The notes beneath the pieces are model-generated. The model was not told the origin of the DNA. It searched no databases and saw nothing but the letters and a program-made list of their open reading frames with translations. The position numbers and the translations under genes are program-made. Source: Archaeoglobus sulfaticallidus PM70-1 (GTDB lineage: Archaea > Halobacteriota > Archaeoglobi > Archaeoglobales > Archaeoglobaceae). Taken from it: DNA of 64,000 bases. Within the stretch, counting starts at the first letter, position 1. Each line of letters begins with the position of its first letter. Below, in pieces: positions 46,226 through 48,829 of the stretch. The stretch spans positions 682,001 to 746,000 of the forward strand of contig NC_021169.1 in assembly GCF_000385565.1 (NCBI RefSeq), in the 5' to 3' direction.

Positions 46226-46634
46226 GAACCAAGTTGGATACGAGAGTTTAAAAATTTTGGTGGAGATCATTCTGGTGATGTAATTTGATATAATAGCCCC
46301 AAACTTTAATGCAACACAAACCTTGTAGTATCCTGAAATAACTTTACACCCCGAACAAACCTATGTGAGGAATCTAACCAACAGAGACATACTCAGAATG
46401 ATGAAACGGTGGCTGAAAAGTGAAATCGGTAAGAAAGATATCTGAATTCTCAGCTACAAGGCAGAGAATTTCAAAGAAACAGGCAGAATTCCTTCTTTCT
46501 CCCTGATTATCCATTCTATTACTCTCTCGTCAAGTTTCATGTTAGGATTTGGAGATGTGAGAAATAATTTCGGGAAAACACAAATTATAAAGCGAATGGA
46601 AATAATTAAAAAACGATAGCAGACAAATCTTAAC
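46226..46634. other. Gap of about 410 bases with transposase-like debris
   Basis: No intact gene. On the plus strand a short frame near 46366-46445 ends LRMMKRWLKSEIGKKDI and is not recognised. On the minus strand the 46454-46540 fragment resembles the start of a transposase. The remainder is A/T-rich spacer before the YhhQ gene. Confidence 0.4.
46454..46540 (-). pseudogene. Possible transposase N-terminal fragment
   Basis: MKLDERVIEWIIREKEG followed by about 11 residues to a stop. The K-L-x-E-x-x-x-x-W-I-I-R-x-K-x-x-G pattern resembles the first helix-turn-helix of archaeal IS-type transposases (IRxIIRxKxxG). It breaks off immediately. If correct, it marks an old insertion at the edge of the queuosine gene pair. 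Confidence 0.3.
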
Positions 46635-47345
46635 ATGCTCTACCAAAACGAGATACTCTGGTTTATCCTTCTCATAGTAAACTTTTCAGGGATTACCTTA
46701 GCATACAGATTATTTGGTAAGTCTGGACTCTATGCATGGACTGCAATGGCTATAATAATAGCCAATATACAAGTAATGAAAACAATAAAGTTCTTTGGAC
46801 TTGTTACAGCAATGGGGAACATCATCTATGGTTCTACATTTCTGGTAACGGATATTCTGTGTGAAAACTACGGGAAAGAGTCTGCAAGAAAAGCAGTGAT
46901 GATCGGGTTCTTTACCCTGATATTTACCACGATAATCATGCAGTTATGTCTTGCATTCATTCCCGATCAAAGTGACACTTTGAGTCCCGCACTCGAGCAG
47001 ATTTTCAGTCTACTTCCGAGAATAACCGTTGCAAGCCTCACAGCATACATCATAAGCCAGTTTCATGATGTTTGGGCATTTGATTTCTGGAAAAGAAAAA
47101 CTAAAGGTAAGCACTTATGGTTAAGGAATAACGCATCAACCATGGTTTCTCAGTTGATTGATAATGCGGTTTTTACATGGATTGCGTTCGTTGGATTTGG
47201 AATTTTCTGGGAACAGGTTTTCCCATGGGAGGTTATAGCAGAGATTTTCATCACCTCTTACATAATGAAATTCATTGTCGCTGTGCTGGACACACCATTC
47301 GTTTATCTGAGCAGGGTAATTAAGGAGTCATTGGCAGAAAAGTAA
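46635..47345 (+). CDS. yhhQ: Queuosine-precursor transporter (YhhQ/VUT family)
   Basis: 236 residues, about six membrane spans. Family landmarks: TFLVTDILCENYGKESARKAVMIGF (the D-x-x-x-E-x-Y-G-K motif), ASLTAYIISQFHDVWAFDFWK, RNNASTMVSQLIDNAVFTWIAF, and VAVLDTPFVYLSRVIKE. Bacterial YhhQ imports preQ0, preQ1 or related bases. The gene converges on a bacterial-type tRNA-guanine transglycosylase with only eight bases between stops, which makes a queuosine-related role likely here. It is A/T-richer by eye than the pyrG side. Confidence 0.88.
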   Translation: MLYQNEILWFILLIVNFSGITLAYRLFGKSGLYAWTAMAIIIANIQVMKTIKFFGLVTAMGNIIYGSTFLVTDILCENYGKESARKAVMIGFFTLIFTTIIMQLCLAFIPDQSDTLSPALEQIFSLLPRITVASLTAYIISQFHDVWAFDFWKRKTKGKHLWLRNNASTMVSQLIDNAVFTWIAFVGFGIFWEQVFPWEVIAEIFITSYIMKFIVAVLDTPFVYLSRVIKESLAEK

Positions 47346-47353
47346 GTGTAATG

Positions 47354-48547
47354 TTATTGATAACCCAACCATCTCTTTTTTAATTCGTAAAATGCTCCAC
47401 TTTCAATAGAATCACGAATTTTTTCAACAAGCCTGATAATGAAGTAGACATTGTGGTATGATGCAAGTCTGAAGTATGTGAGTTCATTGGAAACATAGAG
47501 GTGTCTGAGATAGGCTCTTGAATACTCCTGACATACAAAACAATCACAACTTCTATCGACTGGATTTGTGTCAAATCGGAATTTTGCATTCTTGATGTGA
47601 ATTCTGAATTTGTTTTCTGGTTTTCCACCTTCCTCAGGGCTAATGTAAAGATGTCCTCTCCTTGCCCACCTCGTTGGAGCGACACAATCGAACATATCTA
47701 CGCCCCGTTCAATACAATTGAACAAATCCTCGACCGCACCTATTCCAAGCAAATGTCTGGGTTTTTCCTCCGGTAAAAGCGGTATAACCCATTCAAGAAT
47801 GTTATGCATATCCCTCTTGCTCTTTCCAAGTGAGCCTCCAATCCCAAAACCATCAAAATCTCTTTCCGCCATGAATTTTGCCGACCTTTCTCTCAAATCC
47901 CTGTATTCTCCCCCTTGAACAATTCCAAAAATTGCCTGCTTTTTATTATAATACTGAAGGCATTCTTCAGCCCATCTGTGGGTTCTTTCAAGAGCTATTT
48001 CCGTATATTTTTTGTCCGATAAAGGAGAAGTGCATTCATCAAATGCAAAAATGATGTCGGAACCAAGGTTTGATTGTATTTCCATTGATTTTCTTGGTGT
48101 GAGTTCAACGATCTCCCCGCTTATATGATTTTTGAATCTTACACCTCTGTCATCCACATAAGCCCATTTCTCACCCTTAAAATCAATATCTTTCAATCCC
48201 TCAAGGAAAATATTATTCGCAATCTTTCCAACTCCGTGCTCCATACCAAAACCAAGTGAGAATGCTTGAAAACCCCCAGAATCAGTTACAATGGGTAAAT
48301 CAATGTTCATGAATTTGTGCAATCCACCAAGCTTTTTTATTACCTCGTCTCCAGGACGGAGGTGGAGATGATATGTGTTTGCAAGCAAAACCTCCGCACC
48401 CATTTCTTTCAAATCCCTGTTATCAAGTCCTCTAACACTCGCAAGGGTTGCCACAGGTATAAAAACCGGAGTATTAAATTTTCCATGCTTGGTTTTTACA
48501 ACACCTGTCCTCATTCTGTCTAATGTTGTGTCAATTTTGAATTTCAT
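47354..48547 (-). CDS. tgt: Bacterial-type tRNA-guanine(34) transglycosylase
   Basis: 397 residues, about 380 being usual for bacterial TGT and far shorter than archaeal arcTGT with its PUA domain. Active-site map: Asp89 in TDSGGFQAFSLG, Asp170-Glu-Cys172 in FAFDECTS, Gln211 in FGIVQGG, nucleophile Asp287 in GVDMFDCVAPTRWARRGHLY, zinc ligands Cys334, Cys336, Cys339 and His365. The loop after GIGG reads SLGKSKRDM, one residue shorter than the LAVGE-type loop of preQ1-specific enzymes and Gly-containing as in queuine-using enzymes. It exchanges G34 of GUN-anticodon tRNAs for a 7-deazaguanine. Such an enzyme is not expected in an archaeon, which uses position 15. Confidence 0.9.
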   Translation of the reverse strand: MKFKIDTTLDRMRTGVVKTKHGKFNTPVFIPVATLASVRGLDNRDLKEMGAEVLLANTYHLHLRPGDEVIKKLGGLHKFMNIDLPIVTDSGGFQAFSLGFGMEHGVGKIANNIFLEGLKDIDFKGEKWAYVDDRGVRFKNHISGEIVELTPRKSMEIQSNLGSDIIFAFDECTSPLSDKKYTEIALERTHRWAEECLQYYNKKQAIFGIVQGGEYRDLRERSAKFMAERDFDGFGIGGSLGKSKRDMHNILEWVIPLLPEEKPRHLLGIGAVEDLFNCIERGVDMFDCVAPTRWARRGHLYISPEEGGKPENKFRIHIKNAKFRFDTNPVDRSCDCFVCQEYSRAYLRHLYVSNELTYFRLASYHNVYFIIRLVEKIRDSIESGAFYELKKRWLGYQ

Positions 48548-48746: not shown

Positions 48747-48829
48747 GCCGGGGTGGCAGAGAGGCACTGCGCGAGCCTGGAGAGCTCGTGTCCCTTTGGG
48801 ACGCGTGGGTTCAAGTCCCACCCCCGGCG
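48747..48829 (+). tRNA. tRNA-Ser (anticodon GGA)
   Basis: 83-nt class II cloverleaf: acceptor GCCGGGG/CCCCGGC, anticodon stem CGAGC/GCTCG with loop CTGGAGA (anticodon GGA), long variable arm GTCCC-TTT-GGGAC, T arm GTGGG-TTCAAGT-CCCAC, discriminator G. No CCA. It borders the tgt gene, a common place for transferred DNA. Confidence 0.93.

Follow-up and report, generated by a model that had tools for sequence, protein, structure and literature searches.

The archaeon Archaeoglobus sulfaticallidus PM70-1 carries adjoining genes for a bacterial-type tRNA-guanine(34) transglycosylase (bTGT) and an importer of the YhhQ/COG1738 family (QPTR), which probably form a module for the direct salvage of queuine. 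Both lie in the window, the whole stretch of 64,000 nucleotides analysed (NC_021169.1, positions 682,001 to 746,000), in which we annotated the following features:

46635..47345, forward strand: QPTR (YhhQ/COG1738) importer, type A, 236 aa (TIGR00697, 263 bits against a cut-off of 51; type-A clade in the tree)
47354..48547, reverse strand: bTGT, 397 aa (TIGR00430, 552 bits against a cut-off of 307; PF01702, E=7e-132)
47816..47845, reverse strand: substrate-pocket loop GIGGSLGKSK, TGT residues 235-244, invariant or nearly so in Archaeoglobi
48173..48250, reverse strand: insertion of ~26 residues after SGGFQAFSLG, residues ~100-125, FGMEHGVGKIANNIF..., common to the QueA-less clade
47687..47689, reverse strand: D287, predicted nucleophile, in the motif MFDCVAPTR, invariant in the alignment
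47531..47548, reverse strand: zinc site C334, C336, C339, with H365 at 47453-47455, invariant in the alignment
48747-48829: tRNA-Ser(GGA)

In the mechanism that we propose, the type-A QPTR would take up the finished base, queuine, that other organisms release. The bTGT would exchange it for G34 in tRNAs with a GUN anticodon (Asp, Asn, His, Tyr), passing through a covalent D287-tRNA intermediate. Because the finished base would be inserted directly, QueA, QueG and QueH would be unneeded. Archaeosine at G15 would be made separately by arcTGT and ArcS, with a second QPTR, type B, probably handling preQ0, and in some related archaea an additional hydrolase of the Qng1 type would release queuine from queuosine (5'-phosphate). 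We infer the identity of the substrate, its transport, position 34 as its target and the presence of queuosine (Q) in the tRNA from computational evidence.

The assignment of the two proteins to the bTGT and QPTR families is firm, and the enzyme likely belongs among the queuine-inserting TGTs. TIGR00697 is named 'queuosine precursor transporter' and TIGR00430 'tRNA guanosine(34) transglycosylase Tgt', and the two genes are convergent, with 8 bases separating their stop codons, just as the original prediction had described them. The score of the TGT for the archaeal family TIGR00432 (arcTGT) amounts to 136 bits, below the cut-off of 350, and PF01702 is its sole Pfam domain, with PUA and the other C-terminal domains of arcTGT absent, which bears out the claim that it is a bacterial-type enzyme. 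The residues proposed as nucleophile (D287) and zinc site (C334, C336, C339 and H365) are invariant in an alignment of 16 Archaeoglobi TGT sequences; the role of D287 is presumed by homology with D280 of the Z. mobilis enzyme. With a mean pLDDT of 80, the AlphaFold model of the TGT matches the Z. mobilis enzyme along its length, with TM values of 0.82-0.88 and a Foldseek E value of about 1e-38. The adjoining tRNA-Ser gene was found as predicted. A possible transposase scrap near the pair, at 46.4-46.6 kb, remained unsupported, given that a 60-aa ORF upstream of the genes matches no Pfam or NCBIfam family. A short frame in positions 46360-46460 reads RNLTNRDILRMMKRWLKSEIGKKDI and then ends in a stop codon; it may be the sequence that had been taken for this scrap. 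A scan for sigma-70 promoters returned chance-level numbers only, and the sigma-70 consensus is irrelevant to archaea.

The host had been thought to make archaeosine otherwise, and its genome, a single contig of 2,076,931 bases, indeed encodes an arcTGT (C1:139.9-140.9 kb) directly followed by ArcS (DUF5591/PUA), which makes its archaeosine system separate from the pair in the window. Archaeal COG1738 homologs have been proposed to act in preQ0 salvage (PMC5372724), so that the pair could conceivably feed this very system, with the QPTR bringing in preQ0 and the bTGT serving as a back-up of arcTGT at G15. We give this explanation very little credence, because the window TGT lacks the arcTGT domains and scores poorly for TIGR00432, because the host has an arcTGT and ArcS of its own, and because of the way in which the QPTRs are distributed. 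Split by score and tree, these transporters fall into type A (at least 220 bits), to which the window copy belongs, and type B (138-209 bits). Among 60 genomes, comprising the host and 59 relatives, 22 contained a bTGT over the cut-off, and a fragment in G007 raises this number to 23. Type A was present in all 23 of them, as against one of the 37 others (G011), an association with a Fisher p value of 1e-15 that ignores the kinship between genomes. Type B, by comparison, occurred in 27 genomes, 13 of which have no bTGT, and in G001 its gene lies 2.8 kb from arcTGT-ArcS. The simplest reading of this distribution is that type A serves the bTGT, and type B probably serves the supply of preQ0 for archaeosine.

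The type-B copy of the host (C1:1,493,414) is located downstream of a radical SAM/SPASM gene of the AF0577 type, TIGR04084 (L079:3926-6032; C1:1,491,925-1,494,031). The same neighborhood recurs in G001, with arcTGT-ArcS and the gene for aTrm56 close by. An involvement in 7-deazaguanine metabolism is conceivable for the radical SAM gene; its candidacy as RaSEA or QueE, and with it that link to archaeosine, was dropped once NCBIfam assigned it to TIGR04084.

The juxtaposition of importer and transglycosylase is more than chance, since the same neighbors recur in Archaeoglobi, DPANN, Thermoplasmata and Methanothrix/ANME. We scanned the surroundings of the TGT in 80 loci of named relatives, drawn from Archaeoglobus, Geoglobus, Mnemosynella, Woesearchaeota, Nanoarchaeota, Aenigmatarchaeota, Thermoplasmata, Methanothrix and ANME-1, with a few bacteria among them, mainly Patescibacteria. 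A QPTR adjoins the TGT in all 25 Methanothrix/ANME loci, all three from Thermoplasmata, 11 of the 18 from DPANN and 9 of the 26 from Archaeoglobi, and none of the 80 loci has QueA in its flanks. The adjoining QPTR of DPANN is mostly of type A and convergent with the TGT, like the pair in the window. Methanothrix and ANME-1 loci (L141-L181) contain a third, distant type of QPTR, about 30% identical to type B, which stands in tandem right after the QueA-less tgt and in many loci overlaps it.

A search for queA and queG, proposed along with the original prediction, returned no match at all for QueA in profile searches of the host genome and its 59 relatives, with control genomes responding, and in the same 60 genomes neither QueG nor QueH exceeded its cut-off. 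QueG-like partial matches (up to 75 bits) are of the ferredoxin type and lie far under the cut-off of 200 bits, and QueH matches in G010 and G030 (20 bits) are likewise too weak. A domain search found no QueF in the host genome, and in the relatives this domain occurs mostly in genomes without a bTGT. Lacking QueA, QueG, QueH and QueF, the host would have to obtain any preQ1 for its bTGT from its surroundings, and no known factor would turn this base into Q. It is conceivable, if unlikely, that the QPTR imports preQ1 (or preQ0) and that the bTGT leaves it unprocessed at G34. Bartonella, where a genome with tgt only can still insert preQ1, counts against queuine as the substrate; B. henselae has only bTGT and QPTR, and traces suggest unprocessed preQ1 (PMC11570991). 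In addition, the QPTR of E. coli moves preQ0 and preQ1 (PMC5372724), and the window TGT retains the Cys of the FDECT motif (Cys158 in Z. mobilis) found in preQ1 enzymes. The lack of a QueF domain in the host genome speaks against unprocessed preQ1, as do the architecture of the substrate pocket, which in Bartonella is of the preQ1 type (GGLAVG), and the presence of Qng1 genes next to related TGTs, which makes sense for queuine only. Queuine enzymes of eukaryotes have Val at the position of the FDECT Cys, and its retention in the window TGT thus remains a point against the queuine reading.

The pocket loop of the window TGT, GGSLGKSK, has Gly where preQ1 enzymes have Val or Ile and is one residue shorter, in line with the original prediction, which had described the loop after GIGG as containing Gly and as shorter than the LAVGE loop. 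Among 393 genomes surveyed across the phylum, 56 contain a bTGT over the cut-off and eight contain QueA, which adjoins the bTGT in all eight. The loop of these QueA-linked enzymes invariably reads GGLSIGE (8/8), resembling the GGLAVGE of E. coli, and the QueA-less bTGTs read have GGSLG[KN]xK, with one GGALG and two GGSFG variants, so that in this set the type of loop tracks the presence of QueA with no exception. The eight genomes, from three other families of Halobacteriota (L205-L212), combine adjacent queA-tgt genes and the GGLSIGE loop with variants of an FDxCP motif, and presumably represent a separate archaeal route of de novo queuosine synthesis. In Z. mobilis TGT, Val233 at the pocket blocks queuine, and Gly makes room for it (PMC3660597). 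Queuine-salvaging TGTs typically have the motif GG[LS][AS]G (PMC11570991), to which GGSLG is a close but inexact match, Gly again replacing Val, but the residue before it being Leu. The QueA-less enzymes also share the insertion of ~26 residues, which is absent from E. coli TGT and the QueA-linked archaeal TGTs in our alignment and is poorly predicted by AlphaFold (pLDDT under 50 over residues 101-126). An as yet unrecognized enzyme might turn inserted preQ1 into Q or a new archaeal wobble base, given that our searches covered only the known QueA, QueG and QueH families and many radical SAM proteins are encoded. However, the strict correspondence between loop type and QueA makes such a step highly improbable, and the only genes recurrently linked to the TGT are the QPTR and, rarely, Qng1, with no other third gene.

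Qng1 frees queuine from queuosine 5'-phosphate. A full-length Qng1 (PF10343, E=4e-78; PDB 7uk3, E=7e-70) is encoded in the woesearchaeotal locus L142, where its gene overlaps the start of the longest frame of a GGSLG TGT on the same strand, and a genuine Qng1 (E=7e-93) lies 25 bases upstream of a GGSLG TGT in Chloroflexi (L182). This proximity in two loci points to queuine as the substrate of the GGSLG clade. Archaeoglobi have a divergent homolog, found in 10 of the relatives, all of which have type-A QPTR and nine of which have a bTGT; at the genus level, the association is weak, and a physical link to the TGT was not seen in Archaeoglobi. PF10343 (Q_salvage) exceeds the cut-off in eight of these 10 genomes, and the scores of four of the proteins reach 31-35 bits against a gathering score of 25, with a partial match. 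The AlphaFold model of the Archaeoglobi protein (pLDDT 89) has Qng1 as its best PDB match (Z 24.5 over 266 residues), as against Z 15.1 for the match to AGOG. An assignment as an AGOG DNA glycosylase, raised by a C-terminal PF09171 match, was rejected, as the fold search favors Qng1. K199 and D231 of Qng1, mutated in PDB entries 7u5a and 7ulc, respectively, align with K191 and D219 of the protein from L076; AGOG glycosylases have a similar Lys/Asp pair, so that these two residues alone are not discriminating. A family search identified neither Qng1 nor a Qng1-like gene in the host genome, and the host would thus depend on free queuine. Two genomes with a bTGT contain Qng1-like genes broken by stop codons (L199 in G176:C40 and L200 in G264:C35). 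These broken copies suggest that the gene has been lost more than once, which fits its absence from the host. A genuine Qng1 (L201, G390:C1:1397199-1397477; PF10343, E=4e-54) also occurs in a Halobacteriota genome without a listed bTGT match.

To determine the origin of the pair, we rely on a quick bTGT tree with 80 rows and a careful one with 40, neither of which has arcTGT among its rows. Both separate QueA-linked and QueA-less TGTs into two clades and place the window enzyme in the GGSLG clade, in agreement with profile scores that assign it to bacterial Tgt and not arcTGT. The TGTs of Archaeoglobi form one clade (100/100), nearest to sequences from Nanoarchaeota and Woesearchaeota (DPANN), and their type-A QPTRs likewise form one clade (support 98). 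As judged from these trees, the TGT gene of the window has been passed down within Archaeoglobi, several genera of which have lost it. The horizontal transfer invoked in the original prediction is thus rejected as a recent acquisition by the host; on a wider scale, the patescibacterial TGTs of the GGSLG clade (L146, L147, L153, L158) group with Methanothrix sequences, and genes have likely been transferred between Patescibacteria and archaea. A GC content of 39% (vs 44% for the window) and a third-position GC of 35% for tgt might hint at a functionless relic of horizontal transfer, but both fall inside the range of the window, whose lowest 1.2-kb segments have 36-39%. Moreover, both genes are co-inherited and remain intact throughout the genus (six of six genomes) and in seven genera of Archaeoglobaceae, and the catalytic and zinc residues are invariant, so that a relic is hardly credible.

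The core of the original prediction, a G34 TGT with a 7-deazaguanine importer next to an archaeosine system, probably acting on queuine, survives all the computational tests that we ran. The substrate can now be argued more firmly, given the lack of QueA, QueG and QueH, the loop type that goes with QueA absence, and the linkage to Qng1 in relatives. We further consider it reasonably plausible that archaea of several phyla own a queuosine salvage system, made up of the distinct GGSLG bTGT clade with its insertion, a QPTR dedicated to it and, in some of them, an archaeal branch of Qng1. In that case, hyperthermophilic Archaeoglobi would carry two modifications on the same tRNA, archaeosine at G15 and, supplied by bacterial neighbors, scavenged queuosine at G34. 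The nucleosides of A. fulgidus tRNA have been listed in published work cited in PMC6313347. To our knowledge, Q was not reported there, which speaks against the queuine reading; the growth medium may matter on this point.

A literature search, with subscription papers outside its scope, found queuine salvage described for no archaeon, Archaeoglobi included. The usual account has it that Archaea lack queuosine and make archaeosine in its place, and textbooks attribute queuosine to bacteria and eukaryotes only. Queuosine biosynthesis genes have already been published for DPANN and Methanosarcinales (PMC8204110), as have archaeal COG1738 transporters with a proposed role in preQ0 supply (PMC5372724); what appears to be new is a separate QueA-less clade of archaeal TGTs with its own loop and insertion, a dedicated transporter and a link to Qng1. 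If our reading is correct, many archaea, including the cultured Archaeoglobus fulgidus, would, like animals, rely on bacteria for a micronutrient, and archaeal Q34 would be directly testable. Work on specificity could then draw on naturally occurring queuine-type TGTs and on a single genome with two sorted transporter paralogs, and the system would suggest a salvage economy common to archaea and Patescibacteria of anoxic communities.

Among known systems, the direct salvage of Chlamydia trachomatis, compared by description (PMC11570991, PMC11130926), likewise combines tgt and QPTR without QueA, QueG or QueH and has Gly for Val in the pocket. The window host differs in being an archaeon that also makes archaeosine, in its GGSLG loop, which has one residue less, in the insertion of ~26 amino acids, and in having archaeal relatives of which some carry a Qng1-type hydrolase. 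Eukaryotes also insert queuine directly and hydrolyze queuosine with Qng1 (DUF2419), but use a QTRT1/QTRT2 heterodimer instead of a single bTGT, whereas Qng1 is absent from the host and strongly diverged in other Archaeoglobi. The QueA-QueH-Tgt clusters of DPANN and Methanosarcinales (PMC8204110) share the presence of a bacterial-type TGT in archaea but make Q via QueA, unlike the window pair, which has no QueA and another pocket loop. The Tgt enzymes of E. coli and Z. mobilis and the YhhQ of E. coli agree with the pair in fold, catalytic residues, zinc site and transporter family, and differ in their preQ1 pocket (GGLAVGE), preQ0/preQ1 transport and full de novo pathway. Finally, arcTGT has in common with the window TGT the TIM-barrel superfamily, but possesses extra C-terminal domains with PUA, acts at G15 and is encoded by a separate gene in the host.
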